From Marinoscillum sp. (lineage in GTDB: Bacteria > Bacteroidota > Bacteroidia > Cytophagales > Cyclobacteriaceae): DNA of 64,000 nt. Below the pieces are notes generated by a model. It was not told the origin of the DNA, did no database searches, and saw only the letters and a program-made list of their open reading frames with translations. Positions 23,834 to 41,600 of this stretch are shown one piece after another. Numbering within the stretch: position 1 is the first letter of the stretch; every line of letters starts with the position of its first letter. The position numbers and the translations under genes are program-made. The stretch spans positions 62,001 through 126,000 of the forward strand of contig JAMWZA010000001.1 of NCBI GenBank assembly GCA_024305105.1, in the 5' to 3' direction.

Positions 23834-24658
23834 ATGAAACCAGCATTTTCAAGCTTATTCACCATTCTTTTACTAATCAGCTGTAATCAAAGTAGCACTG
23901 ACACTTATGAAATCAAACTAAAAGGAAGTGAGTCCATGCATGGAGTATTTCTTGACTTGAAGAAAGATTTTGAAAAGACCCATGCAAACATCCATGTCAC
24001 CATCGAAGGTGGAGGTAGTAGAACGGGACTAGACGCAATCAAAGACCATCAAGCCGATATTGGGTTATCCTCCTTTGAATTTAATCTGGACCGGGAACTT
24101 GGAGCCAATCATTCAGTAAAAGAAAAAGTAGTCGCGTATGATGGGATCGTATTAATTGCCAATGAAAACAACCCTTTGGATTCTTTGACAGACGATCAGG
24201 TACACTCTATTTATCAGGGAGAGGTGTTTGACTGGAATCAACTCGGTGGAAAACCGGGAACCATTGTTCCAATCATACGGGATGAAAACTCAGGAACCCA
24301 GCGTTTCTTTACCAGCCACTTCAACATCGAATCAATAACCAGATCTGCAGTGGTTTCTGCAGAAAACAAGGAGATTTTATCCAAAGTACAGGGAGATGTC
24401 AATGCCATAGGCTTTATTGGTTTCGCTTATTTCTCACAGGGAGTACACGATTTAAGGTTAGCTACTGAAGACTCAAATGGCTATCGCTCTCCCACCAAAA
24501 GAAATCTGCTCAATAACTCATATCCACTAAAAAGGGGTCTTCGCGTTTATTACACACTAGAGAATGACGATGCGGTAAAATCATTCATCAATTATCTGGA
24601 CAGTAAATCAGCAAAAGCCATCATCGAATCTTATGGACTAATTACCCTGAATCCTTAA
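23834..24658 (+). CDS. PstS-like substrate-binding lipoprotein
   Basis: A 274-residue periplasmic binding protein with lipobox LISC (Cys17). The PBP-like fold shows in IKLKGSESMHGVFLDLKKDFEKTH at the start, a GGGSRTGLDAI phosphate-type anion loop, and DENSGTQRFF, which in PstS proteins contacts phosphate. No pstA, pstB or pstC genes lie nearby, so it may be an orphan sensor or scavenging protein rather than part of a complete transporter. It converges with the GH130-like gene, with a 4-bp overlap of coding ends. It may bind phosphate or a related anion; that is by family only. Confidence 0.82.
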   Translation: MKPAFSSLFTILLLISCNQSSTDTYEIKLKGSESMHGVFLDLKKDFEKTHANIHVTIEGGGSRTGLDAIKDHQADIGLSSFEFNLDRELGANHSVKEKVVAYDGIVLIANENNPLDSLTDDQVHSIYQGEVFDWNQLGGKPGTIVPIIRDENSGTQRFFTSHFNIESITRSAVVSAENKEILSKVQGDVNAIGFIGFAYFSQGVHDLRLATEDSNGYRSPTKRNLLNNSYPLKRGLRVYYTLENDDAVKSFINYLDSKSAKAIIESYGLITLNP

Positions 24659-25755
24659 AACCCATCTCTGGACTGTCCGGATACTGCTACGGCAATTTTG
24701 GAGTCCGCTGTTCCATAGTAGAGAAACCATTTATTCTGATAATAACTGAGCCCTTCAATAAAGCAGACATTATTCACCTGTCCGGTGATCTCATACGATT
24801 TATCAGGAGTGAAAAAGTAATCAGTAGATCTGTTAATCAATTGAGTAGGGTCGTCCATACTAAACAATGCCTGACCTGCACTATAAGTACCATCTGCCAA
24901 ACTTGAATCTCCCTGACTAAGCCTATTTCGACTGTTATATATTAGTAACACTCCTTTATCCGTAATCATAGCGGGAGGTCCGGGCTCTACCAAATCACTA
25001 TCAAATTTCCCTTTTCTAGGAGAAAGCACCTTCCGCCAATCACCTTCATCATTCATTATCGGATTCCAATGTATTAAGTCGTCAGATGTGGCGATAAACA
25101 AGTCTGTATCTCCGAAATACATCCAATAGGAGCCATTAACCGTCTTTGCTACAAGTTGATTTCCCTTTAAGGTGCTCACTATTGCTCCAGACTTTGACCA
25201 GCTATTGACATCCGTCGAATCCTTAAAAACCGATCCATGTTTTACCCATGTTCGAAGGTCATTACTAGTGGCCACAAGAAGTCTGGCAAGGTTTCCATCA
25301 TAAGCAGTATAGGTCATCACATAAGTCCCATCTTCTCGCAAAACAATTCGTGGATCTTCAGCACCCCCCTCCCATTCGTATTTTTTTAACGCGTCGTTGT
25401 TGGGATAGAATACTGGCTTTGCTAATCGCTCAAATTGGACCCCATCCAGAGAGTAAGCCAAACCAATCCTGGAAGTGCCGTTAAACTTCCCAACAAAATC
25501 CTCCGCACGATATAGCATGAAGAGTGTATCCTCTTTTACCACCGAAGCAGGATTAAAAACATCCTTCCCCTCCCACCTGACTGACGCACCACTTATGGGA
25601 TCAGTAAAGCGAGTGGTCGTGTCTGGTAGTAAGATAGGATTGACATCATCAGCCTTTTCAAACCCGCGCAATTGCCAGCTATCGTTATCTGAAGATTTCT
25701 TTGGCGCACAGCTAAAGATGAGTACCAGCGTGAGGAGTTGTATGGATTTTCTCAT
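24655..25755 (-). CDS. GH130-like glycosidase/phosphorylase lipoprotein
   Basis: I use the ATG at 25755 (MRKSIQLLTLVLIFSC), which gives a lipobox at FSC. The 366-residue product has a five-bladed propeller with VFNPASVVKEDTLFMLYRAED, YEWEGGAEDPRIVLREDGTYV (the EDPR motif carries the GH130 catalytic Asp) and the final FLYYGTADSKIAVAV. This fits GH130 mannoside phosphorylases and beta-1,2-mannosidases; GH43 is the alternative. Export as a lipoprotein argues for hydrolysis rather than phosphorolysis. The gene is divergent from the aminotransferase with 31 bp between starts. Substrate unknown. Confidence 0.75.
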   Translation of the reverse strand: MRKSIQLLTLVLIFSCAPKKSSDNDSWQLRGFEKADDVNPILLPDTTTRFTDPISGASVRWEGKDVFNPASVVKEDTLFMLYRAEDFVGKFNGTSRIGLAYSLDGVQFERLAKPVFYPNNDALKKYEWEGGAEDPRIVLREDGTYVMTYTAYDGNLARLLVATSNDLRTWVKHGSVFKDSTDVNSWSKSGAIVSTLKGNQLVAKTVNGSYWMYFGDTDLFIATSDDLIHWNPIMNDEGDWRKVLSPRKGKFDSDLVEPGPPAMITDKGVLLIYNSRNRLSQGDSSLADGTYSAGQALFSMDDPTQLINRSTDYFFTPDKSYEITGQVNNVCFIEGLSYYQNKWFLYYGTADSKIAVAVSGQSRDGF

Positions 25756-25786
25756 AATTTTCAGATTCATCGTAAACAAAGACAGA

Positions 25787-26695
25787 ATGCTTCAAGAATT
25801 TAACCCAAAAAATGCAAACATTCAGATATGGGTGGGAAATAGCCTGGTTCCCCGACAGGACGCCAAAATATCCGTATTTGATTCTTCGGTGCAAGGTGGT
25901 GACGCGGTTTGGGAAGGCTTAAGACGCTATAAAGAAGGATTATTTTGTCTGGACAGACATCTGGACCGGATGTACGAGTCAGCCAAAGCCCTGGCGTTCA
26001 CTGAGGTTCCGGAACGCTCATTCATAAAAAGTGCCATCAAACAAACCTTAGAATCCAATGGCATGACACATGACACACACATCCGGCTTACACTAACACG
26101 CGGAGAAAAAGTGACTTCTGGAATGGATCCAAGGGTGAATCAATCAGGACCTTGTCTAATCGTCTTGGCCGAATGGAAACCTTTGGTTTACGACAATGAG
26201 AATGGCATCAAGGTTATTACCAGCACTCAGCGCAGAAACAATCCTCAGTTTCTTGATAGCAAAATACATCACAACAACCTCCTGAATAATATACTGGCAA
26301 AGATTCAGGCGAACTTTGCTGGAGTAGATGCAGCGATCCAGCTGGACCATCAGGGATTTGTAGCTGAGCTAAATGACACCAACCTGTTTATGGCTAAAGA
26401 TGGAGTACTTTACACTCCATATGCTGATGCTTGCTTACACGGCATAACCCGTGGACTGGTCTTGGAAGTAGCAGAAAAAGAACAAATCAAAGCTCAGGAG
26501 AAAAATTTGAGCCTGGTGGAATTCTACAATGCAGATGAAGTCTTCGCTACTGGCACGATGGGAGAACTAACTCCTGTCCATGAAATAGATGGTAGACCTG
26601 TTGAAAACAAAACAGGAATTAAACTCAGAGCAAGACTACAAGAGGCATTCTCTAAGCAAATTCCTGATTTATGTGAACAACTGTGCGTAATCTAG
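25787..26695 (+). CDS. Class IV PLP aminotransferase (branched-chain aminotransferase-like)
   Basis: The ATG at 25787 (MLQEFNPKNANIQIWVG) is chosen; the frame is open further upstream but that part is antisense to the GH130-like gene. The 302-residue fold-type IV enzyme has VWEGLRRYKEGLFCLDRHLDRM, the PLP lysine as Lys159 in FLDSKIHHNNLL, GFVAELNDTNLF and the ATGTMGELTPV stretch. Closest in type are D-amino-acid or branched-chain aminotransferase-like proteins, and it looks like the C-terminal half of the plant sulfotransferase/BCAT-like fusions. Its partner domain is encoded at 23035. Substrate cannot be told from sequence. Confidence 0.85.
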   Translation: MLQEFNPKNANIQIWVGNSLVPRQDAKISVFDSSVQGGDAVWEGLRRYKEGLFCLDRHLDRMYESAKALAFTEVPERSFIKSAIKQTLESNGMTHDTHIRLTLTRGEKVTSGMDPRVNQSGPCLIVLAEWKPLVYDNENGIKVITSTQRRNNPQFLDSKIHHNNLLNNILAKIQANFAGVDAAIQLDHQGFVAELNDTNLFMAKDGVLYTPYADACLHGITRGLVLEVAEKEQIKAQEKNLSLVEFYNADEVFATGTMGELTPVHEIDGRPVENKTGIKLRARLQEAFSKQIPDLCEQLCVI

Positions 26696-28152
26696 ATATT
26701 CGGTGACCACACACTGTAGCCGTTTGGAGGGCATTGGATTTTTACCCAGCCTCCACTTTGTGTGGTGGGAATCCATCCAGAATTGCCCGTAAAATCTTTT
26801 ATCTGTGTACTATTCCAGTTGGTTGGCACCCAGCGTTCTACCCAGTTGCTGGAATTGTTTATATAAACGACCAACCCAGGATTACCACCATAACCATTTC
26901 TTCTAGCAATGTATTCATCATTATCAGTATAGAGAATACTCGTATTTCCTGTGGCTTTGTTGTTATGAATCCAGATGAGGTTGTCCAATTTACTTTTGTC
27001 CAACCAGGATTCATAATCCTGATAGAATACACAAGGATACCCTTCATGAGTTAATATGTATGCATAAGCAAGCATCTTATTCCATATCTCATCAGTATCA
27101 TGGTTGGTTACAAAAGTCACTGCTTTATACGAATTACGCTTCCACATCATGTCGTCATTCAGGAGATTCAGATTACCTCCGTCAAAAGCATCGTTCATTT
27201 TATAATAGGCAGCAAAATCAAAAACAGAACTATTGGCTTCATTGGCCCACCAGTTTAAGTAATCCACATTTGAATCCCATAGTTCACCTACCGAAAAACC
27301 TCCCACGTTACTGTTCCAGGTACTGATTACCCATGGAGCAAAGCCCTTTACATAGTCGAATCTCCACCCATCGAAGCCCATCACATTCTTGTAATACTTA
27401 CCAACTGCATCAGACCGACCCCATAGCCAATCTTGCACATGTGGCACTTCATGGCACATATCTGCAAATCCACCAAATACACCTTCATCATTTCCGTGAA
27501 CCCAATTGGGGTGAAAATCATGCTGGCTTCTGGGAAATTTTCCTGAGGCCACTCCTGTGTAATCGGTATAGGTATTGGTGCCGGTATATTGATTTGCTTC
27601 TGATGCACCACCACTATTGTGATTCAACACAATGTCAGCATAAACTTCCATATTTTCAGAATGCGCCGCTGAAATCAACGACTGTAATTCTGTCTTAGAG
27701 CCAAATCGTGTTTCCACCGTTCCATTTTGATTGAAGTCCCCAAAATCATAATAGTCAGTTGGGTCATACCCCATAGAATAAGGACCGTTTTGTGCTTTGG
27801 ATACCGGTGGTAGCCAAATGGCATTGATTCCTGCACTGGACCAGGCTGCTGTTTTACTTTCCACTACCTCCCACCAGGTACCTCCTGCTGGCACGTCCCA
27901 GTAAAAACCCTGCATCATCACTCCGCCACCTGGACCGGCTGTATATCGAGCATTTGACGCGTTTGTCTGAGTAGAAAATGGCCGCCCATCATGTGTCGTA
28001 ACATCTACAACTTCGATCGCTCGTTGAGCTTCAAGGAGTTCGTTTTCACCAGACTGTTCTTCACATGACCATATCAGCGTTAAGAGCGTTAGGGCAAAAA
28101 TTGATCGCCAAAAAACGGATAGTAAATTTTTTAATTGTGTTTTCATCATCAT
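26692..28152 (-). CDS. Alpha-amylase GH13, outer-membrane or periplasmic lipoprotein
   Basis: A 486-residue endo-acting starch hydrolase. Translation probably starts at one of three consecutive ATGs at 28152-28146. The lipobox WSC puts the lipidated Cys at about residue 30. The catalytic barrel has the nucleophile Asp266 in GWRFDYVKG, the acid/base Glu290 in SVGELWD and the transition-state Asp352 in VTNHDTDE. The start MMQGFYWDVPAGG and GYDPTDYYDFGDF resemble the bacterial liquefying (GH13_5-like) or archaeal-type amylases. No CBM or sorting domain follows. It lies 79 bp after the T9SS amylase in one operon and its stop overlaps the aminotransferase end by 4 bp on the other strand. Confidence 0.92.
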   Translation of the reverse strand: MMMKTQLKNLLSVFWRSIFALTLLTLIWSCEEQSGENELLEAQRAIEVVDVTTHDGRPFSTQTNASNARYTAGPGGGVMMQGFYWDVPAGGTWWEVVESKTAAWSSAGINAIWLPPVSKAQNGPYSMGYDPTDYYDFGDFNQNGTVETRFGSKTELQSLISAAHSENMEVYADIVLNHNSGGASEANQYTGTNTYTDYTGVASGKFPRSQHDFHPNWVHGNDEGVFGGFADMCHEVPHVQDWLWGRSDAVGKYYKNVMGFDGWRFDYVKGFAPWVISTWNSNVGGFSVGELWDSNVDYLNWWANEANSSVFDFAAYYKMNDAFDGGNLNLLNDDMMWKRNSYKAVTFVTNHDTDEIWNKMLAYAYILTHEGYPCVFYQDYESWLDKSKLDNLIWIHNNKATGNTSILYTDNDEYIARRNGYGGNPGLVVYINNSSNWVERWVPTNWNSTQIKDFTGNSGWIPTTQSGGWVKIQCPPNGYSVWSPNI

Positions 28153-28231: not shown

Positions 28232-30274
28232 TTACCGGACAATAAGTTTTTTCGTAAACACCTCACCATCAACACTTAGCCGTACGATGTACATCGCTTT
28301 GGATGGTGGCAATTGGCTTGCATACAAGATCACCTGATGATCTCCAATCTCCGCTTGTTGATCTAGAACCCGAATGTTTTGTCCGGAAGCATTGAACACT
28401 TCCAGTTGTACATGTGCAGCTTCTTCCAACCGGAATGAAACACGAGCCTCTTCGAAGAATGGGTTAGGGTAAACCGACAGCTCACCTACCGTAAAAGATG
28501 CTGTTCTGGCACTTCCAGACCAACTACCATTCTGCCAATAGGCCTCTGGTCCACAGGTGTACAGGTCCGAAGTTTGGCCTCCGCCATTGTAGCTAAAAAT
28601 GACATTGGAACAATCTGACTGTATGGTAACTGCGTTCCATCCATTACCTGCACTGTTCATAACAGCACCGGGCCAGCCTCCTAACAAAGCACCATTGGCA
28701 TCCCACGCATAGCAATGTGTGTAACCTTGAGCATAAACTGTCATGGTGTTTCCCCCGCCACTAGTTGGGTCGGAAGCATACCACTGGCCATTGTAATAGT
28801 AAGGAGTACTATCACAGGTGTTTAAATCGGCAGTTTGGTTTCCACCATTGTTGCTGAAAATAACATTAGAACACTCTGCAGCAATGGTTACCTCGTTCCA
28901 ACCATTCGACCCTACGGTTAAGGCTGTCCCTGGCCAATTACCCAGTAATGGGTTTTGGTTATCATCCCAGGCATAGGCGTGGGTATAATTTTGTGAATAT
29001 ATGGTCATGGTAGACCCACCACCTCCTCCTGAGCCCTCTGCCCAGATAGCATAGTTGGTACCTGAAGCGGATAGCGTCCAGGTTCCTCCCATGCCTTCAG
29101 CAGATGGATCGCCCCAGTTGGAATAGCCCATTTTTATATATACCGTGTGGTTGTCACCATCAATTGAAGCTACATATAAGCCATTTTCACTGCGGTGAAC
29201 AGTCACTGGGCTTTGACTATGGATGCCTGCATCCTTACGGACGGCTATTAATGCTTTTATTTCGCTGGTAACACTTCCTCCCCACTCATACAAGTGACTC
29301 CAATAGACACACGGCACTCCGGGGTGTGTCAACAGGTAAGCATAAGCCTGGCCTACATTATTGCCATTCAATACGTTGTTGTTAGGATCGTAATCTGGCG
29401 TGTCATGATTCTCTATGAATGTGGTGTAGTTTTTAGGGTCCCAGCCGATTCCACCTGCAGGCGATCCCTGATAAGCCAGATACGAATAATTATTGTCCCG
29501 AATCACTCCTTTTAAAGCGTAGTAGGTAGAAAAGTCAAATGCGGTAGATCCAGTGGCGTCTATCCAGTCCTGAACAACTTGTTTGTCCTGACTCCAGTTT
29601 TCGCCAACAGAAAAAGTCGGATTGGAATGTCCATTGTAAACAGTGAAGTAGTACGGATCGAACCCATGCACAAAATCGTATCGCCAGCCATCGTAACCAA
29701 GCGATTTCAGGTTATCAAGAAAACCCTTGATATCGTTTTGGACAAACGTCTGCGTGTGGTCCACATCGCGTGCAGCAGCATATGGAGTTCCAGTATCGTA
29801 GTTACCTCTCAACCCCACAGAGCTGTAAGCAGGCTGACTCCAGACTTCATCATCAGCAGTGATTGAGTTCGTGCCCCAGGTAGGGTTAGTAAAGTCTACC
29901 CAGTTACTAGAACCAACACGGTGATTGATTACGATATCAGCAATTGCATCAATACCATGTCCATCCAGCGCTGACAACATGCTCTGATGCTCAGCAAGAG
30001 TCCCATAATTATTTGCAAAATTATTGAGCTCTCTGGGCAAATAACCCTCCAGCGAACCTGCATCACTTGGCGGTGGCAACCAAATCATATCAATGCCAGC
30101 AGCGCTCATATCCGAGGCTTTGGCCTCTACATATTCATACCAGTCTTCAGGGTAGTCGTGTGACGACTCCCAGTAGAAGCCCTGGAGTAAGACCCGATCA
30201 TCATTAGAAACCTGAGCCATCAGGAACAAGCTCAGGCCAATTAAACAAACAGTGAGTAACGTTTTTTTCATCAT
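28232..30274 (-). CDS. Secreted alpha-amylase (GH13_6-like) with two CBM26-like modules and T9SS sorting domain
   Basis: A 680-residue extracellular enzyme. The signal peptide ends near residue 20. The barrel is plant-type (QGFYWESSHDYPEDWYEYV; WLPPPSDAG; IADIVINHR), with Asp200 in GWRYDFVHG, Glu225 in SVGENWS and Asp291 in IENHDTPD. Two homologous starch-binding modules lie at about 423-500 and 511-588, each ending in a cysteine-bearing DLxTC segment after a glycine linker. The C-terminal 594-680 is a T9SS type A sorting domain (VYPNPFFEEA, KLIVR). It is divergent from the AraC-type sensor and is the first gene of the amylase operon. Two starts, 30274 or 30271, are equivalent. Confidence 0.93.
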   Translation of the reverse strand: MMKKTLLTVCLIGLSLFLMAQVSNDDRVLLQGFYWESSHDYPEDWYEYVEAKASDMSAAGIDMIWLPPPSDAGSLEGYLPRELNNFANNYGTLAEHQSMLSALDGHGIDAIADIVINHRVGSSNWVDFTNPTWGTNSITADDEVWSQPAYSSVGLRGNYDTGTPYAAARDVDHTQTFVQNDIKGFLDNLKSLGYDGWRYDFVHGFDPYYFTVYNGHSNPTFSVGENWSQDKQVVQDWIDATGSTAFDFSTYYALKGVIRDNNYSYLAYQGSPAGGIGWDPKNYTTFIENHDTPDYDPNNNVLNGNNVGQAYAYLLTHPGVPCVYWSHLYEWGGSVTSEIKALIAVRKDAGIHSQSPVTVHRSENGLYVASIDGDNHTVYIKMGYSNWGDPSAEGMGGTWTLSASGTNYAIWAEGSGGGGGSTMTIYSQNYTHAYAWDDNQNPLLGNWPGTALTVGSNGWNEVTIAAECSNVIFSNNGGNQTADLNTCDSTPYYYNGQWYASDPTSGGGNTMTVYAQGYTHCYAWDANGALLGGWPGAVMNSAGNGWNAVTIQSDCSNVIFSYNGGGQTSDLYTCGPEAYWQNGSWSGSARTASFTVGELSVYPNPFFEEARVSFRLEEAAHVQLEVFNASGQNIRVLDQQAEIGDHQVILYASQLPPSKAMYIVRLSVDGEVFTKKLIVR

Positions 30275-30423
30275 AATTTGGAATTAGGTATATCAAAAGT
30301 TTAACATGACCCTGAAATTCCACTATAAAAACACGCTGTTCGCTTCATTTTATAAATTGATACTTTAATAATTGATTGATTGTCCTATTATTAATCCTTC
30401 AGATAGTAACTTTTATTTTCGAT

Positions 30424-30444
30424 TAATTTTGTGAGATTCACAAA
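30424..30444 (+). promoter_or_regulatory. -7 box and overlapping palindrome at the CBM-AraC regulator start
   Basis: TAATTTTG at 30424-30431 fits TAnnTTTG, and the perfect palindrome TTTGTGAGATTCACAAA spans 30428-30444, covering the expected transcription start 18 bp before the GTG codon. It has the look of an autoregulatory operator. The half site TTTGTGA resembles CRP half sites but the spacing of 3 is too short for CRP. Confidence 0.5.
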
Positions 30445-30461
30445 CAACCTAACTAGCAGCG

Positions 30462-31958
30462 GTGAACAACAAGGGATTTTTATGCATTCTATTTCTTGCC
30501 ATCTGCCTATGTGGATTAGCTAAACCAATCAGTAGGTACAATACCACAATCATCATTGAGCAGGTGCCCTCCAACACCCCGCATGATGCTTCGCTCTATC
30601 TTGCAAGCAATGTAGATGGTTGGTTACCTGATTTAGAAAATCGCCAATTTGAGCGATTGGCTGATGGCACTTACCAACTGAGAATCACACATGATACTGA
30701 TACGCTTAGTTTTAAAATAACCAGAGGTAATTGGGATGCAGTGGAAGCGAGAGATAATGGCCGTGCATTGCCGAACCGGGTACACTACATCAAACACACG
30801 GGTGAAGTTGTGAGAGTATCGGTAGAAGTTTGGGAAGATATTTCCATTGGCTCGTACACCATTCACATGTTTTTCTTACTGATTATGTCTATCCAGGGGT
30901 TCTTGCTAATAATTGCAATCAACACCATTCGCAATCAAAACAAACGTGCTAATTCCATTCTTTCAATTCTACTCGTATTGATCACTATTTCACTTTTAGG
31001 TCGTGCTTCCACTTTTGACCCGGACCTCTTTACCTGGCAACCGAAGTTGATCTTTGTCCCTGAACTCATTCTGTTTACCTATGGCCCTATTTTCTACCTC
31101 TACATCCAGAAACTTCTGGTAGTAGAAAAAACCCGAAATGTCTGGATCCATTTTATCCCAGCAGTTCTACAAATTGCCATCTATATCCCGTATTTATTGA
31201 TTGATGGTCAGGTACTGATCTATCTGATCATTGACAAAGAATTATTTCCGTATTTTGCGATTTCTGGTTTTATTTCCCTACTATTCAATGGGTTTTACTG
31301 GTGGAAATGCCGTGAGCTAATGATTAGATATGCGAACCAGGATCACTTATCTGAAAAACAAAATAAGTACCTCCGCTTTCTTAATGGCGTTCTCAATATC
31401 AAAGCAGTTTATCTCACACTATGGTTCGCTGCGGCGGTTATTTTCCTAACAGGTGAAATCTTCGAAACAGACCTGCTCTACATCTCTGAAAACCTGATCG
31501 ATGTACTCTGGCTATTATTCTCACTTATAATTTTTGCTTTGGCGTTTTATGCAGTGAAGCACCCAGAAGTACTGCGTGAAAAGAAGAAATATCAGGACAA
31601 CAAAATCAATCCAAACGAAATCAATCAGGTAAAAGACAAATTACTAGAGATACTCAACAAAGACAACCTGTATTTGAGACCTGATCTAACCCTCGAGAAT
31701 GTTGCTCATATGATTCCGACAGCTACCCACACGCTCTCCAGAGTCATCAATGAACAGTTTGATCAGAACTTCACCGAATTAATCAACACCTATAGAGTCA
31801 ATGCTTTCATAGAACGTATTGAATCCAACCCCAAAGATTCCTATTTAGAAGTGGCCTTAGCGGTAGGGTTTAATTCCAAACCCACCTTTAATCGTGCTTT
31901 CAAGAAAATCAAAAAATGCACTCCCAGAGAATATTTTAAGCACAGTAAGAATACTTGA
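30462..31958 (+). CDS. Membrane AraC-type regulator with starch-binding-like ectodomain
   Basis: A 498-residue one-component sensor. The GTG at 30462 is the only start giving a signal peptide (LCILFLAICLCGLAKPIS); a nearby ATG is out of frame. Residues 25-125 form a CBM20/AMPK-glycogen-binding-like beta domain (LYLASNVDGWLPDLENRQF; DTLSFKITRGNWDAVEA). About seven membrane helices follow (130-370), then an AraC HTH domain at about 395-495 with LTLENVAHMIPTATHTLSRVIN and YLEVALAVGFNSKPTFNRAF. It is divergent from the amylase operon, 187 bp away, and so most likely senses extracellular maltodextrin and activates these genes from the inner membrane. No dimerisation or kinase domain is seen. Confidence 0.85.
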   Translation: MNNKGFLCILFLAICLCGLAKPISRYNTTIIIEQVPSNTPHDASLYLASNVDGWLPDLENRQFERLADGTYQLRITHDTDTLSFKITRGNWDAVEARDNGRALPNRVHYIKHTGEVVRVSVEVWEDISIGSYTIHMFFLLIMSIQGFLLIIAINTIRNQNKRANSILSILLVLITISLLGRASTFDPDLFTWQPKLIFVPELILFTYGPIFYLYIQKLLVVEKTRNVWIHFIPAVLQIAIYIPYLLIDGQVLIYLIIDKELFPYFAISGFISLLFNGFYWWKCRELMIRYANQDHLSEKQNKYLRFLNGVLNIKAVYLTLWFAAAVIFLTGEIFETDLLYISENLIDVLWLLFSLIIFALAFYAVKHPEVLREKKKYQDNKINPNEINQVKDKLLEILNKDNLYLRPDLTLENVAHMIPTATHTLSRVINEQFDQNFTELINTYRVNAFIERIESNPKDSYLEVALAVGFNSKPTFNRAFKKIKKCTPREYFKHSKNT

Positions 31959-31972
31959 GTATCTTCGAGTCA

Positions 31973-32671
31973 ATGATCTATTTCTACCATCCAGACATCA
32001 ACGATGGTTCATTGGAACTCCCTGAAGATGAACATCAGCACTGTAGCCGAGTACTGCGTAAATCGGCTGGTGATGAAGTAGGGATATTTGACGGTAGAGG
32101 TGGTGAATTCCATGTGCGCTTAACCGAGGTTTCGAAGAAAAAAACACAGTTTGAGATCATAGAAAGGAAAAAGATGGACCGGAAGCCTTTTTACAATCAC
32201 ATCGCTATTGCCCCAACAAAGAACACCGACCGGATCGAGTGGTTTGTGGAAAAAGCTTGTGAACTGGGAGTGGATGAGATCAGTTTTATATTGACCAAAA
32301 ACTGCGAGCGCAATAAGCTGCGAATTGATCGATTGGAGAAGAAAGCTGTCAGTGCTTTGAAACAATCAAAGAATGGTTACCTCACGAAGATCAACGAATT
32401 AATCAAGATCAAAGATTTCATTTCTAAAGCACAAGCCGACTCTAAACACATTGCTGTGGTGGAACAAGGGCTTCCCTATTATGGCACCTTGATTGAGAAA
32501 CATGCTAATATTCTAACACTCATCGGACCGGAAGGAGATTTTACAGCTCAGGAATCTGAATTAGCTGAGGCAAGTGGTTTTCAAAAAGTCAGCCTTAGCA
32601 AGAGCGTGTTAAGAACAGAAACGGCCGGCCTCATGGCCAGCCATTTTGTTAATATGGTTAATGGGTTTTAG
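31973..32671 (+). CDS. rsmE: 16S rRNA (uracil-1498-N3)-methyltransferase RsmE
   Basis: The ATG at 31973 (MIYFYHPDINDGS) is preferred to a frame start at 31955 that overlaps the AraC gene. The 232-residue SPOUT enzyme has the N-terminal PUA-like part (EDEHQHCSRVLRKSAGDEV), AIAPTKNTDRIEWFVEKACELG, the trefoil-knot SAM site TLIGPEGDFTAQE and SLSKSVLRTETAG. It methylates U1498 of 16S rRNA in the small subunit. Length is normal. It converges with the giant surface-protein gene, whose stop codon overlaps its own by 4 bp. Confidence 0.94.
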   Translation: MIYFYHPDINDGSLELPEDEHQHCSRVLRKSAGDEVGIFDGRGGEFHVRLTEVSKKKTQFEIIERKKMDRKPFYNHIAIAPTKNTDRIEWFVEKACELGVDEISFILTKNCERNKLRIDRLEKKAVSALKQSKNGYLTKINELIKIKDFISKAQADSKHIAVVEQGLPYYGTLIEKHANILTLIGPEGDFTAQESELAEASGFQKVSLSKSVLRTETAGLMASHFVNMVNGF

Positions 32672-35600
32672 TGAGCAATGAGTCTAATTACTTGTTTATT
32701 CTCTCCCTGCACCACTATTAGGTAGAACAACCCTGACCCTATTTCTTCACTAAACTCAACCTTATAGTCTGCCAAACCCAGGGACGGTTCTGATTGCTTT
32801 CGGTTCAATACCCTGCCCGAAGCATCCAACAGCACAAACTGCAAGGCGCTAAGTTCATCGCCCGTCTGAACTCGCACATTGATCTCTGGGCCTACGATTG
32901 GGTTGGGATAAACTTCTACCTTCATTCCTTGATAATAGCTATCGTTATTAGCTACCACGATACCACTGTATTCAAACTGTCCATCATAATCAACCTGGCG
33001 CAGGCGATAATAGTTAATGCCTTTGAATGGCTGCTTATCTATGAACTGGTATGAAAGCAACTCGTTTGAGTCCCCAAAGCCTTTCACAGTACCGATCGTC
33101 TCAAACTCACCATCCTTATTAATTCGCTCTACTTCAAATCGATCATTGCTCTGCTCTGAGGCTGTTTGCCAATCCAATACCACCAGGCCTTCCTTGACGG
33201 TTGCTTTAAAATCAACCAGCTCTACTGGTAATGGCACTGGTTCATTGGAACCAAGTGTCACATAATTGGTACTAAAACTCAAATCTGTATCTGATATTAT
33301 GGACCCATTTCCTGAGGACATCCCTGAATAACTCAGGTTTCCGTTTCCATAACTGTCCCATGTTTCATCGACAGCATTCCAAACCATGACTCTTAAATAC
33401 TCCCATGCGTCTTGACTTGCTCCTGCATTGGTATCTCCATCCCAATATGGTCTAACATCAGCAGTGGCTGGAGAAGCTACATCTACCTCAAACAGGTCTT
33501 GTTTGAATACTACCGAATTCGCATCGTTCACCTCATCATTCCAGGTGGTAAAATCATAGGTAGCATTCACATTCGTTATTCTGGTGGATGTGGTTGGGTT
33601 TTCACTGTGGTATTGCACTGTCCAGTCCTTAGTACCGCCATATCCCTGGGTATTACTTACCGCAAATGGCAAATAAACTGTACCATCTCCCACAGGAAAA
33701 AACTGAACATCGGTACTGGTTTCTAATCGTCTAACTAATGGACCATCTACAAAAGTACTTGCGCTAAAGCTTCCAGTAATACTACCAGTATTTAGAATGA
33801 TTAAAGAGTTATCTGCATCCGTGGTGATAATACCGCTAGTCATAACCAGGTCCTCAACTTCCACGTTATCATCTCCTGCATTGATTACGGTAAGACCTGT
33901 ACTGTTATCCACTTCCAGTGACTGAATAGCTTGAGAACCCGTAAAAGAACCATCAATGGATTGCTGAGAAGACCCATCCATAACAATAAGCGCATTGTTA
34001 AAATCGCCATCAAAAGTGGCCGTAGCATCTTTAATGATATTTCCGGCCACATTCAGCGAAGTATTGTCTCCAAGCGTCAATGAACCACCATCAAGGATCT
34101 CCAGGTTCTCGCAAATATCAAATGAGGATCCATTGGTCAGCACCTTTTCTCCATCTCCTGATAAGATCAAGCGTCTTAATCGATCAAAAGGAAGCGCAAG
34201 ATCCACACTCTGTCCAGTTGATACATTGAGTTCAAAACCTCCACCAGTGGTACAGGCTTCATCTGCTTCAAAGGAAGTGTATTCGCCAGCAGGCAGTGAA
34301 TTAGTGTTAACCAATCGAAGTGTTCCATCACCCGTTAACGTTCCTAAATTGACACCCGAACCTGAAATAGTCAAGGTAGCACCTGATTCAATGGTTACTT
34401 TTCTAAATCTCCAGAATTGGTCTGTTAAGTTCAATATAAAATCTCCTGCGACCCTTAAATCCGGTGATTCGCCTAAAGTAGGCACTGTTCCTCCTGGCGC
34501 AGTATCATACGAACTTAAATCATTAATATCACCTTGTGTGGCAGTAGCTATGGTAACATATTCCGGTACTTCATCCGGTATAGCCCCTCCACACAAAGCC
34601 GTACTGGTATTGGAAACGACCGTTATTCCGGCCGTATATGTACCGGCCAGATCATCACTGGTAAAATCCGTATAATCGCCACTGATAAGGCTAAACTCGA
34701 TAACATTATTGACCTCATCAAACTGATCAGCACTATATCCCTTGTCCCAGGTAGAGCTAGCATCTAAAAGACGTGCAGGTGCATAGTTGGTGAGATCAAG
34801 GCCAAGTGTATTGTCTACCGCTTCCAAATTATTGGTATGATAGAGCCTTATGGAGCCATCAAAATCTTCGACATTAGCTGATCTAATCAGCCAATAGAAC
34901 TGAAGGATGTTGTCAACATCAACGAAATCCGGACCAATCTGGTAGTCTTCGCCAGATTCCATAATATCCTGATCCAAAGTAAGTTCTGTATCTGAATCGA
35001 TCACTGTTACCCTCGCATAAGTCTCATCTGTTACGTTCCCCACAACATCGCCCACAGTCACTGTACTGGTAAAATTCTGTCCAGCATCGATCAGTTTGTT
35101 GGCAGTAGTTCCTGTCGCAGTTCCCGTTTCATCTGGACTGATACAAACTTCATCGCCATCATCAGGTATGCCTCCGGCAATATCCTCAATCGGCTTGATA
35201 GTGATCTGATTATCATCCCCAGTGGAACCTGAAAGGTCGGTTACATTTACTTCCGCCGGAGTGTAGTAATTGAGTCCGATTGGGTATAAGTAAGACCCGG
35301 TAAATGAGTCACTGAATAACTTCCGAACTCCATTATCTGTAATACTCGCATTAACGGTAACCATGCTATTGGTATTGAAGTCTGATCTGGAGGTTCCGCC
35401 ACTACCATTTTCAAAAATGGCATCTTCATTCATGATCAAAAGATTACCTCCGATATTGAATACACCAGAACTTAGAATAATCTTATCATTAACTAGGAAG
35501 GTTTTACCATCTCCTGATATTTCTACACCATTCGAATTATCTACGGTCAACACACCAAATTCCCCTGAATCTACTGATGTGTCAAGATTTTGAGCGTCTC

Positions 35601-38600
35601 CTCCATTGAATACAATTCCAGGGCCTGCAGATGAGCTGGTATGAATAGCATCATGAACCATGTCACCTTCTACATTGACAGCTGAAGTACCAGTGGCGAC
35701 TGTTCCATCTAATAAACTCAAATCATTCTCAATAGTAATCTCCTTACCCACTGTTAGGGTTCCTGAACCTGCCTTTTCTAGATTGAAGAAATCCGAAGTT
35801 CCTGTACCCAAAATTTGCTGTGCTGAACCTGAAGGAAAATAGGTGGTCTGTTGGTTGATGTCCGTACCACCGTTAATATAGGTTCCATCATTGTCAAAAT
35901 CTCCATTTACGGTAAAATCATATCCGTTGGCATCAAATGTTCCTCCAGTTTCAACTTGTAGAGCGTTAATCTCTAAGTCTGTATTGTAAATTTTCGCAGT
36001 GGGGCTATTATTTCCAGTCACTAAAAGACTACTCAAACCTACGTTGGAGTCAATACCAATATCGTCTTGATTGGCCGGTGTATCTGGGCTTCCGATGGTT
36101 ATGGTCGAGCCAGTCACATCCACATCATCTGCATCAGGTTTGATGATCAATGAACCCACCGTTGAAGACCCATTTTCACGAACGACTGTAAACTCACCTC
36201 CAGTAAGGTTGAACTCGCTTCCACTATTAATTACTTCAAAAACTCCACGCGTGGACGCTGGAGCAGCTTCTATACCAAATCGTGCTATACCGCCACTCTG
36301 TGTGTAATTAAGCAAACCATTGACGGCTGTCAGTTTTCTACGGACCTGTGATCCAACAAGTAGAAACCCATCCGTTACTTCGATTACAGCGTTATCAGAT
36401 GACCCGTATTCGATAAAATTATTTCCATTATCGCCTGTAATGGACATATCCAACGTACCACCGGATATTCTCAACAACCCGTCTAATATGATTCCAGTAT
36501 CATCACCAGAAACAGTTACAGTACCTTGTTTAATTTCAAGTCCACCGGAACCAGAAGTGGCCTGTGAATTCAAAGTATTCGGAAGGTAAAAATTACCTGT
36601 TGATGCATCGGTTAAATTAAAGTTAACAGCAGCGTCAATAACAAGCAATCCATTCAATATCTCAATTGGCTGTATTCCGCTTGTTCCAGGATCTGTTACT
36701 GTGAATATGTCTGGAATTGTGAAAGTATTGGTTGTATCTGAACCTTTATTCATTTGAATCTTATACAGATCCATTGTAATGCCCGCATTATCTGTAACTC
36801 TATGATCACCAGTACCAGTCAATTCAAGAACCACATTAGTTCCTGAAGAAGCGAGATCGAAAGTGGTTGCATTATCAAAAGTTATATTACCATTAACCCT
36901 TAAGGTATGTATGTCGACTCCAGAATTTTCTACGGAAATGCTATTTGGGTTTGAATCACTGCCTCCGAACATGTGTATATCTAAGCACTCCAACGTAAGA
37001 TTACTTCCTACATCGATAAACTCAATAAACCCTTCTTGATTGGAGCCGACTAACACAGCAGAATCAATTGTTAAATTATTGGCGAGTTGGAAAGTCACAT
37101 TATTATCAATCAGCATATTTTTAGCGTTGACCTCTTTTCCAAATTGAAAAAACCGATTAGCATTTCCGCCAAATGTTCTAAAAGTTGGATACTCATCAAA
37201 ATCGTTGACTACTGTAGTACCATTCGCCTGGATCCAAAAGAACCATCCGTTGTCAGAATCAGCTGCGAACTCACCAATATCAGCAATGATTGTTCCAAAA
37301 TTTGCAGGATTAGGCCCAACATCCTGAACCATTTCTCCTCGGCCAGTTATTTCACCTGCAGTAAAGGTGATTCCTGAGCTTACTCTTATACGAGACATAT
37401 CTGTGACATTCAGGGCAGTCCCGCCATCTCTTGAGTCGAATTCCACTTTTGCTACTTCTGTGTCTCCCTGCGAACCGTCGATTCTTATTTGATGTCTACC
37501 ATCTCCTGTCTTGGAATAAGAGCCCCCTGATAGGGAGTTAACATATTCGCTTCCTACAACAACAACGTCTCCAGCACCCGGAATACTTCCAGCTGGTGCT
37601 CCAATATGCTTATCCACAGCGTCTATCGACCAATTATTGGTACTTTGCCACTCCCACCAAGACCCATCTGTTGCTCTACTGTAGTAAACTGTGGGGCTAC
37701 CATCAAATCGCGCACTCTCCCCAGCAGTATAATTGGCTTCCTCCAGAGTGAATCCAGTTCCTGGCCATGGAGTACTCCAATTATTATCAACATTGCCTTG
37801 ATTGTACAAGCCATCACCGGTACCCGTATCAATTTCATCGTTGGCATCATCTCCACTTGCATCCTGATTGATGCCATTAAACATGATAATATTCGCGGGA
37901 TTTGTTCCAACAATGTTTCCGGCATTCCCAGTGGCACCACCATCTTTGACCGCCTGATCAGTGCCATCATCTGATCGAGTGTAACCACCACTATTTAGTA
38001 CTTTACCCGGCACATAGTTTGTTTCGTCTCCAGCATCTATGTCATTATCGTCATATTGAAAAATCCACGATACTTCCGGCAAGCCAGCATCGAAACCTTC
38101 TGTAGAAACTCTCCAGTAATAAGATAGAACATCTCCTCCGGACAAATCTGTGGTCTGCAATACCTTATCAACCACTCGTACAGTCACGTACTCATCCCCA
38201 TCATAGGTCACTCCGGCATCATCGACCACATGCATGACTGCTGGGGTGTATCGTTCATCCGAATTAGCCTCAGTACCTATGGGAAACCACAATCTGTCTG
38301 GCGTATTGTAAACCTGACCATCTACATAGTAAGATGCTCGATCTACTATATTAATTTCTTCTGTATAATTGGCGTCAGGAAATGAAGGTGTAGCACTTTC
38401 GTAAAGCGTAAGTGATCTCGGAAGTTTGATTGAAAGACCACCATCAGAAGCATTCCCAGCCATTCGGATGTAGTCCGATGTAGAATAAACTCCCTGACCA
38501 CCGACCTGAGGAATAAAGCCACTGGAAGACAAATCCAAAAATTCGAAAACATCAACTTTAAGATTATTTGTTCCAATATCAATCACACCGGCAGCATACT

Positions 38601-41600
38601 GTAGCCTTCCTACCGTAATATCACTGGTTAGCGCAATCTCGAATCCAGCATTATTTATCTCTAAATTTCCGAAACCAGCTCCTTCAGTTGAATTGATCGT
38701 CACGTCATTGCTAGCCCGAATATTAACAGTCCCCTCTTTTCTAGTAGTTCCATCTTCATAAACGAAGCATTGTCCCTGATTGGTGATTGACCCTAACAAA
38801 TACATCCCGTAACCTGCCGGATCCCCCACCGTACCAAAGTCGGTTCCATCACCTTCGGTGAGTTGTAGTGTACTCAGAGGGTCATTTTGATTAAGTGTAC
38901 CGCTAAGCAGCTGGAATTCATTCGTAACGACTACCAATCTCACAGCGTACCTACTCAGATTTTTACCTCCACCTGATGTCTTGTAAAGGCTCGCATTGCC
39001 TCCGGGACTTCCATCTCCTTTACCTGGTGATTTGGCTGCCAGATATAGTACTGCATCTTCTTTATCAATCACCCAGTTGTAAAAGGGTAACGTATATATT
39101 CCATAAGTCTCATCTCCAGAACCAAAGCCCGATGGCCATGGCCCGGAATCCGGATATTCAAATTCCACTAATGCGTTGGTGTACGTAGTAATATCACCAA
39201 TATACAACACGGCATTTTCATCTCCATTCATCGTTACCGTTGCACTTCCGTCATTGTCACTGCCATCCCAGGCCCAGACATCCAATACTCCACTATCTTC
39301 GATATATAAGTCTCCACCTACCTTTAAATTCACACAGTTATTACCTGGACACAAATCAAGATAGCCTCCATAGGTATTAGAACCAGACGTTCTGGTTGTG
39401 CTCGTTACAATGGTGAGATCATTGAGCACTTTCACATCTGGGTCGGTAATGGTACGATCATCTGCACCCCCAGGACCATTAAGCAATGTTTGTGAAGTTA
39501 TTTTAGCCGTGGTATTGGTACTGCTGTTCCGAATCTTCAGGTTCCAGAACGGCGCATTTGAAGCAACTATTGAATTTCCTGCGACCGAAGAGTAAACATT
39601 AACCGTACCTCCTGTCACACTGATATTATCTGGATCCGAATTAATGAAAATCAAACCAGCACCTGTATCATCTTTGACATTCAGCGTTCCTCCAGTCATG
39701 GTAAAAGCATTTCCCTCATAAGTCAATGCAAACCGAGCATAGTCTCCGTTTGCAGACCCTGCTGCTTGTCCAAGTACAGGACTCTCTCCTGCAGAGTAAT
39801 CCCATACGTTCACTGTTCCCCCTGTTTGTTGATAACCTCCCTGGGCAGCACTCCCCTGTACGGATGTCCTAATCTGGCTTACCCAAACCTGACCTCCTGA
39901 CACGTTGATTTGGCCTGCATCTCTAGTTGTTATACCACTACCGGACGGTACTTCCAGAATCCCCGCAACTACCTCGATTATCCCATATGGAGTAACAGCG
40001 GCGCCTCCCGTTTTCGTAACTTTTCCACCATTCACTATTAGTTTGGCGTTTGCTCCGATGGAGTAATTACCGGTTGTATTTAATCTTACACTCACATTCG
40101 TACCTAAACTAGCAGTGCCTGTGATTAAAGCAAAAGCATTATTATTGTCACCAGGGTCGTCTACATCACCATCTACATTATCATTGGCAAAACCTGTTAA
40201 TATAAAATTGGCTGGATCATCAGCCTGGATATTGGCTGTAAAATCAATCGATCCTTTCACTATTTCTATTCGGTAAAAATAGGTGAGTCCATTGCAGTCT
40301 ATCTGCTGATCTGAATTGATCGAAACAAGGTTTAAATCGACCACTCCATTGGTAGACTCACTACCGTAATTGGCTGTTGTCCTATTCGAAAACTGGGCCG
40401 TTCCCTCGTTGAGAAAATCACCGTAAAGATTGAATTCATGCCTGGCACTACTAGCTGGAACATTTGCTGTAGTAACCCGACCATCCTGTGTACCTCCATT
40501 AGACTCTACAGAGAAGTCACCCAAAACAGTAAATATTCTGTTGGTTCCAGAGCCATCGCCAAATTGAAAGGTCCCGAACCTAACATCAAAATCACCATTA
40601 ATAGTCAAATCTGCACCTAGTTCAACAATATCCGTATTATTGTCCAATCTAATCCGCACATCCTTGAAAATCCGATCCTGATTAAATGTAAAACCGGTAC
40701 CACGTACCTGCAATAGCCCTCCGTTCGCCGGATTACCAAAACCATTAGACCCAATGGTGTTGCCGTCAGGAAAATTACTTGCTCCACCATTTCCGCTGAT
40801 TCGAATAATTCCCTGTCCATTGATAAGATTAAAATCATGCCCTGTGGAAGTGGTTATATCCAGTGTTCCATCCACAGTCACACTTGCCACAGTAAGGTTA
40901 TTAGTAGTCGATTGGATGGTGACTGTTTTACCGTTTCTGATCACCACATCGTCTTCTACATCTGGTACTTCATCCATCGGGTTGTTGGGAATTGGTGCTG
41001 ATCCTGCATCCAGTGTCCAGGTATCAGAATCTGACCAGTCACCATTCTGAAGTACGTACCATGTTCGCGAGGTTATCTGTGTTCCTTTACCAAGCGTATA
41101 GTAACCGGACCTTAACCTGCTTGAAGGAATAGATACCACCACCTGATCGGTATTCTCTATCGCATATGAATTAGCAAAAACTCTCGTAAAATCATCTGCA
41201 GTAGTACTTCTATAGAGTAAGACGAAATCAGTCGATGCTCCGCTCAGCGTAAGGCCAGCTTCGCTGAAATCGAAGCGAAAGTTTGTTTCAATGCTGGCTG
41301 CGTCCACCACCCCATTTTGACTGGTTTCAATATAAAAATCCTTTGCCCACCTTTCGGTCACGTCCACTCCATCTACATTGGCAGTCACTCCATCAGCATG
41401 AGCGGTTCCAGCATCGTGAGCTACAAAAGTGAATTCATTCGTATCATCTAGTTTGTCAGTGGCTTCAAGTTGTAACCCACTGCTAAATCCTGATGCAGCA
41501 TGGAGGGCCGAACCATCTTCTGTTCCAACTCCTCGCATGTCGGCGGTATAGTTAGCATCGAAATCTGCATAATTACCAAAGAAATCACTCGTGATAGTTA

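Follow-up and report, generated by a model that had tools for sequence, protein, structure and literature searches.

The locus described here raises the question of whether a bacterium can connect a starch-binding-type module directly to its amylase promoters through a single membrane protein. It lies in a 64,000-nt stretch of DNA from Marinoscillum sp. (assembly GCA_024305105.1, contig JAMWZA010000001.1, positions 62,001-126,000 of the forward strand), hereafter termed the window, whose own numbering is used for all coordinates (Table 1). The gene of interest encodes a seven-transmembrane (7TM) AraC-type regulator with an N-terminal ectodomain. It is divergent from, and 188 bp apart from, the gene of a GH13 alpha-amylase sorted by the type IX secretion system (T9SS), and a second amylase gene then follows on the same strand as the first. 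The original prediction for this locus, made from the sequence, had placed the regulator opposite a T9SS amylase with two CBM26 modules and a lipoprotein amylase; this arrangement was borne out by the open reading frames (ORFs) and Pfam matches, with the lipobox after the likely start of the second amylase read by eye. Judging from the sequence evidence set out below, the regulator is probably a periplasmic alpha-glucan sensor that directly activates the adjoining amylase genes as a one-component system, without a relay kinase.

Table 1. Coordinates of the regulator, the intergenic DNA site and the divergent amylase genes in the window.
Feature	Position	Strand	Basis or remark
7TM-AraC one-component regulator with CBM48/AMPK-type ectodomain	30462..31958	+	498 aa, GTG start, signal peptide
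Ectodomain (residues 25-127)	30534..30842	+	Limits from relatives; family-profile match to AMPK1_CBM
Seven membrane helices (about residues 134-367)	30861..31562	+	Hydropathy, positive-inside rule, low-confidence AlphaFold2 helices
AraC-type DNA-binding domain HTH_18 (residues 421-493)	31722..31940	+	Pfam
29-bp conserved block	30339..30367	.	22/29 positions identical in all six divergent pairs
Predicted operator, near-palindromic core GCTTCATTTTATAAATTGATAC	30342..30363	.	Conservation, genome scan, held-out loci
T9SS-sorted GH13 alpha-amylase with two CBM26 modules	28232..30274	-	GH13 catalytic and C domains, T9SS sorting tail
Lipoprotein-type GH13 alpha-amylase	26692..28152	-	ORF extends to 28275; likely start in ATG run near 28152

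The chain follows the order originally proposed, i.e., signal peptide, beta domain, seven helices and AraC domain, as upheld by Pfam, hydropathy and the positive-inside pattern of the loops. HTH_18 was matched in Pfam at an E-value of 1e-14 (55 bits against a cut-off of 33.6), and all 15 full-length family members tested also contained this domain. Mean hydropathy over 15 relatives revealed membrane segments centred at residues 144, 175, 206, 238, 270, 318, and 357, in addition to the N-terminal signal segment; the segment at 206 merges two close peaks and that at 270 is the weakest. Loop charges show the alternation expected from the positive-inside rule, with the ectodomain side lying outside the inner membrane and the C-terminus in the cytoplasm. 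A whole-chain AlphaFold2 model of low confidence (two sequences, pLDDT 54) comprised an N-terminal helix, seven strands, seven long helices and the AraC helices. On these grounds, the regulator should be a seven-helix inner-membrane protein of N-out/C-in topology, with its ectodomain expected to face the periplasm. The further proposal that it senses extracellular maltodextrin has to be corrected for the side of the membrane: because inner-membrane proteins of Gram-negative bacteria sample the periplasm, the regulator would sense imported or diffused oligosaccharide rather than extracellular starch.

We examined 76 loci, the window and locus L011 included, of which 59 encode regulators with the ectodomain and 17 encode regulators without it. 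The ectodomain, about 100 residues long, is a modular unit that occurs in one copy in 19, two copies in 38 and three copies in two of these 59 regulators. Searched as a single sequence, the window ectodomain had no significant match in Pfam or the PDB; its sole Pfam match was to X25 (E = 0.074; 13.6 bits against a cut-off of 27), and a family profile was hence needed to see its kinship with carbohydrate-binding modules (CBMs). Among 24 single copies, weak Pfam matches at E ≤ 1 were to AMPK1_CBM (six copies), X25 (five), CBM53 (three), CBM48 (one), and CBM20 (one), while ten unrelated families were also matched by one or two members each; the best single-copy E-values, 0.014 for AMPK1_CBM and 0.0023 for CBM48, remained short of the curated Pfam threshold. 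At full length, 6 of 15 family members matched AMPK1_CBM, with a best E-value of 1.5e-5.

Comparison of profiles gave a clearer signal. A profile of 99 unique ectodomain copies aligned by hhalign with a nine-row AMPK1_CBM profile from related genomes at 95.6% (score 49.2, 53 columns) and with CBM20 at 58% (score 29.0, 80 columns); in the same setting, the accepted pair AMPK1_CBM-CBM20 scored 32.4. The controls CBM26, CarboxypepD, and Por_Secre scored 16.2, 22.3, and 13.4 against the ectodomain profile, and five column shuffles of the 24-copy profile scored 6.7-13.9 against two CBM profiles. A PDB search with the 24-copy profile returned weak matches only, the best being an alpha-amylase (E = 0.011), followed by SGBPdex, pullulanase and SusF up to E = 0.2, and then by ribosomal S2 and others. 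Residues W54, E95, and W124 are invariant in all 99 copies and W91, N105, and R106 occur in 94-97%, W91 being tryptophan in 94%. In the hhalign alignment, W54 and W91 coincide with the tryptophans of the FNxW and NGxW motifs of AMPK1_CBM; in AMPK beta, the two corresponding tryptophans contact sugar. The window copy resembles CBM48, CBM20, and AMPK modules in its profile match, the tryptophans of its FNxW and RGxW motifs and the NR near its end, and differs from them in falling far under the Pfam gathering score. Overall, the relationship of the putative sensor domain to CBM48/AMPK-type (CBM20/48) glycogen-binding modules is supported at the profile level. The original prediction of a CBM20- or glycogen-binding-like ectodomain thereby stands by the 99-copy family profile, but not by Pfam on the single sequence, and at the profile level the fold did not prove unrelated to CBMs.

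We next consider the distribution and gene neighbourhoods of the regulator. A search with the window protein (E ≤ 1e-40) found a match in at least 14 of 148 genomes of the taxonomic family, and a 15-member profile (E ≤ 1e-60) matched at least 50 of 291 genomes of the order, 42 of these with the ectodomain, as well as at least 7 of 345 genomes of the class and at least 18 of 395 of the phylum. These genome draws overlap, and the counts are lower bounds since scoring was confined to a few candidates in each genome. Beyond the order, at least two matches carried the ectodomain (L146 and L147, which were included in the tree and kept outside the neighbourhood counts); the other matches were 7TM-AraC proteins without it. 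Examples of such ectodomain-less proteins, L230-L243 among them, come from several families of the phylum.

The regulators that carry the ectodomain recurrently lie beside alpha-glucan genes. Using phmmer calls from nine GH13, three SusC, and five SusE seeds, a GH13 gene was located within 9 kb of the regulator in 42 of 59 loci with the ectodomain compared to 0 of 17 without it (Fisher test, p = 6e-8), and within 1 kb in 31 of the 59. Either GH13 or SusE was present in 48 of 59 loci with the ectodomain versus none of the 17 without it, two of which are short (L022 and L042, 3.7 and 6.4 kb). The chance expectation is about 2.4% per 20-kb segment, as calculated from seven GH13 places in the 5.76-Mb Marinoscillum genome. 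When the regulators were grouped at 60% identity, 26 of 35 clusters had GH13 beside at least one member and 24 beside all members. Pfam searches of 40 neighbouring proteins identified amylases, cyclomaltodextrinases, SusD and SusE/F, and at some loci unrelated neighbours only.

The divergent arrangement itself is more restricted. A divergent GH13 gene within 1 kb occurs in 6 of the 59 loci (the window, L011, and L030-L033), which form a close subclade; three have only the lipoprotein-type amylase, two only the T9SS type, and the window alone has both. At the other GH13-bearing loci, the GH13 gene usually has the same orientation as the regulator, on either side of it, and in one case is convergent, so that several GH13 types and all four orientations are represented, which argues for a kept function over simple inheritance of gene order. 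The suggestion that related genomes conserve the divergent pair thus holds for five close relatives, but tandem arrangements are commoner across the 59 loci and the link to alpha-glucan genes is wider than the pair. At L011 (PBTY01000053.1), all 11 listed ORFs match window proteins in the same order at 49-86% identity and the T9SS amylase is absent; this record bears a Rickettsiales metagenome-assembled genome title and looks like a mislabelled relative of the window organism.

A conserved DNA site lies between the regulator and the amylases. Comparison of the six divergent intergenic regions, which are otherwise poorly alignable, revealed the 29-bp block with its 22 invariant positions, compared to 22 of 158 positions elsewhere in the window intergenic region. 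Its near-palindromic core is 68 bp upstream of the start codon of the T9SS amylase and 99 bp upstream of that of the regulator, and the corresponding site in L099, GTGCCATTTTATAAAATGGCAC, is a perfect palindrome. In L030, a 160-aa ORF without a Pfam match sits between the site and the amylase. In the Marinoscillum genome, the palindrome occurs at one place with no mismatches and the next best place has two; the other GH13 genes of this genome therefore lack the site. A wide regulon in the same genome was rejected: beyond that one place, the count of matches with up to three mismatches (45 in total) is close to the 36 of the backwards-read control.

We built a symmetrised matrix from the six divergent sites and applied it to the 53 remaining loci with the ectodomain. 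A GH13 or SusC promoter is present in 40 of these held-out loci; in 21 of the 40, the top-scoring intergenic site fell in such a promoter, against 9.8 expected by length (simulated p = 5e-5, a value that ignores kinship among loci). Counting sites adjacent to the regulator too, the numbers were 31 of 53 against 19.0 expected, and 5 of 17 against 3.5 expected for the ectodomain-less loci. In each of the 12 held-out loci with the highest scores, the site is located either in a GH13 or SusC promoter or adjoining the regulator. With a longer matrix, sites were also seen 49 bp upstream of ectodomain-less 7TM-AraC genes in L121 (position 10099) and L122 (position 8877); these hint at a class-wide operator, autoregulation, or chance.

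Several observations weigh against the regulator being an alpha-glucan sensor that acts through this site. AraC-family sites are more often direct repeats than palindromes. The best site lies outside a GH13 or SusC promoter in 32 of the 53 held-out loci, 13 of which hold no such promoter, and three of the 17 ectodomain-less loci (L122, L127, and L131) contain a site scoring at least 16. On the tree, a single change suffices for the ectodomain, with long-branch warnings and a branch support of 65 by a quick method; the linkage contrast between loci with and without it hence does not consist of independent events. Moreover, both GH13 and SusE are absent from 11 of the 59 loci with the ectodomain; five of these run into a contig end (L034, L080, L087, L107, and L110), while L038, L040, L088, L089, L091, and L095 are not cut and still lack both. 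Four of these 11 (L087, L088, L089, and L091) form one tree group in which each genome carries a second copy of the regulator; one such copy, L118, has an adjoining GH13 gene, and the second copies G282:C166, G220:C97, and G344:C420 were outside the examined set. For the ectodomain, the hhalign match to AMPK1_CBM spans about half of the module, and a Foldseek search with a poor AlphaFold2 model (two sequences, pLDDT 49) gave no match at E ≤ 0.001, a result we left unused. The module also occurs on PF00756 esterases, with both tryptophans kept, and, according to excerpts of PMC8040265, the CBM48 modules on CE1 esterases from Dysgonomonas did not bind any of the glycans tested, among them potato starch.

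The ligand of the ectodomain is the main doubt of the favoured reading. The Marinoscillum genome itself encodes a PF00756 esterase carrying the module, with 29% identity to the window regulator over residues 12-127. Since the esterase-linked copies keep both tryptophans, the presence of the pair is not discriminating, and the starch reading draws on profile kinship together with gene linkage instead of on the module itself. A PDB search with the esterase of L007, made to compare the tryptophans with CBM48-CE1 structures, aligned to the enzyme part only. The Bacteroidetes CBM48-CE1 esterases are similar in having a related module before a PF00756 esterase and differ from the window protein, in which the module is fused to a 7TM-AraC regulator rather than to an enzyme. 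The module also precedes esterases at L007 (1072-2850), L189, L193, L196, L203, with PF00756 confirmed for L007 and L193. At L208 (766-1842), one module copy lies near the C-terminus of a protein that has DUF4625 and bacterial Ig-type matches and, by eye, a lipoprotein-like N-terminus. The examined proteins exclude the ectodomain ORFs G112:C126, G112:C40, G007:C25, G088:C1:459213, and G002:C138.

These esterases bear on an alternative in which the regulator does control the amylases while its CBM48-like domain does not bind alpha-glucan, serving as a spacer, a dimer clamp or a receptor for another ligand or a protein, with the membrane part being the real input. In the portion of PMC8040265 cited above, the CE1-linked modules from Dysgonomonas not only failed to bind starch or the other glycans tested, they clasp each other in the crystal dimer, and the CBM48 modules of wtsFae1A and wtsFae1B are said to be without starch binding. 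The existence of modules of the same kind on esterases here, and of related 7TM-AraC proteins without any ectodomain in other parts of the phylum, is in keeping with this alternative. Yet the module is kept in one to three copies per regulator with W54 in all 99 and W91 in 94% of copies, and among the 76 loci GH13 and SusE were found only beside members that bear it. The modules described in these parts of PMC8040265 have few aromatics on the face that packs against the enzyme, which may or may not be the face of W54 and W91. On balance, we consider a non-binding ectodomain unlikely, though it deserves to be kept in mind.

A second alternative, compatible with the first, is that the regulator is a repressor relieved by maltodextrin and not an activator. 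The site lies between the two start codons and could block either promoter; against this, its spacing from them leaves room for activator placement, and most AraC-family regulators that control sugar genes act as activators. Repression is the less probable mode of action by some distance. It is more doubtful still that the palindrome serves another factor as its operator, e.g., a LacI-type maltose regulator, with the 7TM-AraC gene a mere neighbour or acting elsewhere. Palindromes are typical of LacI-type operators and the Marinoscillum genome encodes five LacI-type proteins, but sites at other GH13 genes would be expected of a general maltose regulator, whereas this genome has one place with under two mismatches. 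Held-out relatives again have related sites in promoters next to this regulator, and the five LacI genes are all outside the window and on contigs that lack GH13 (weak evidence given 296 contigs).

Returning to direct activation by a periplasmic alpha-glucan sensor, the following sequence of events may be envisaged. Maltodextrin released by the amylases would bind the CBM48/AMPK-type domain in the periplasm, and the seven helices would pass the ligand-induced change to the cytoplasmic AraC domain. This domain, probably dimeric, would occupy the palindrome and activate both amylase genes, as its position and conservation suggest. From the same features, it may perhaps also act on the regulator's own gene.

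The regulator was also compared with known systems. The 7TMR-DISM receptors share its layout: they have seven helices, a carbohydrate-binding-like ectodomain rich in beta structure, and cytoplasmic outputs of various kinds. Membership of this group was rejected, as no such Pfam model was matched by the window protein at E ≤ 1 or appeared among the 25 families listed for the 15 members. DUF6377, which we take to be the SusR-like family, gave no Pfam match in the window protein at E ≤ 1 and was absent from the families listed for the 15 members, and the window protein was on this basis not assigned to SusR. Elsewhere in the genome, one DUF6377 protein exceeds the cut-off, on another contig, and four matches are weaker; this protein and the five LacI-type proteins are all on contigs without GH13, which is weak evidence because the assembly consists of 296 contigs. 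The absence of SusR noted in the original prediction hence applies to the locus, but not to the genome as a whole.

In Bacteroides thetaiotaomicron, SusR binds maltose in the periplasm and activates the starch operons, as related in excerpts of PMC3878776 and PMC11633381. Like the window protein, SusR as described in these excerpts is a membrane one-component starch regulator with a periplasmic maltose or maltooligosaccharide sensor and a cytoplasmic DNA-binding part; its DNA-binding part is reported there to lack significant similarity to those of other factors (PMC3878776). The window protein differs in its AraC domain, seven helices and CBM48-like sensor. Because SusR is already described in this way in the same text (PMC3878776), a route from periplasmic maltose to DNA through one component is nothing new in itself, and the earlier view of such a link as unusual needs correcting in this respect. 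Hybrid two-component systems (HTCS) share with the window protein a periplasmic glycan sensor, an AraC-type output and the control of polysaccharide loci (PMC3878776, in part), and differ in their kinase and receiver domains, which the window protein lacks. No kinase or receiver Pfam match was found in the window protein at E ≤ 1 or among the families listed for the 15 members; HTCS membership was rejected, and the proposal that the chain works without a hybrid two-component system was confirmed to this extent. What sets the regulator apart from SusR is its protein family, sensor module and membrane part. In the literature searched, judged by titles and abstract openings, we found no description of such a regulator, nor is one described in the excerpted part of PMC10766802.

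Some further genes in and around the locus may be recorded. Near the amylase pair, a GH130 protein (24655-25779, minus strand) resembles the beta-1,2-mannosidase BT3780 (434 bits, cut-off 550), and GH130 counterparts lie near amylase genes in L011 and L030. The regulator and RNA methyltransferase genes are closely followed downstream by an ORF of 3233 aa (32668-42369, minus strand), whose counterpart in L011 is 49% identical. Elsewhere in the same genome, L002, L005, and L006 (G000:C79:36450-45635) provide three AraC-type matches within 10 kb; the first is a protein of 347 aa that matches the membrane and AraC parts without the ectodomain.

Taken together, the architecture, the starch neighbourhood and the probable operator recur across several families of one order. 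We lean slightly towards regarding these proteins as a distinct class of seven-helix receptor, in which a CBM is wired straight to a DNA-binding domain with a palindromic operator of its own, and as a starch-sensor lineage of one order, perhaps of single origin from ectodomain-less 7TM-AraC stock. This is a variant of membrane one-component regulation and no categorically new principle. Since the predicted operator is precisely defined and 59 natural variants are available, the ligand, the signalling through the helices and the DNA site are each testable, and the system could yield a compact glycan-responsive switch for engineering. The control of polysaccharide loci in Bacteroides has been described in terms of SusR, HTCS and sigma/anti-sigma pairs (PMC3878776, in the text excerpted). 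The regulator described here is a candidate for a further route of control, in which a starch-binding-type module would act as the sensor and seven helices would transfer its signal into an AraC domain.

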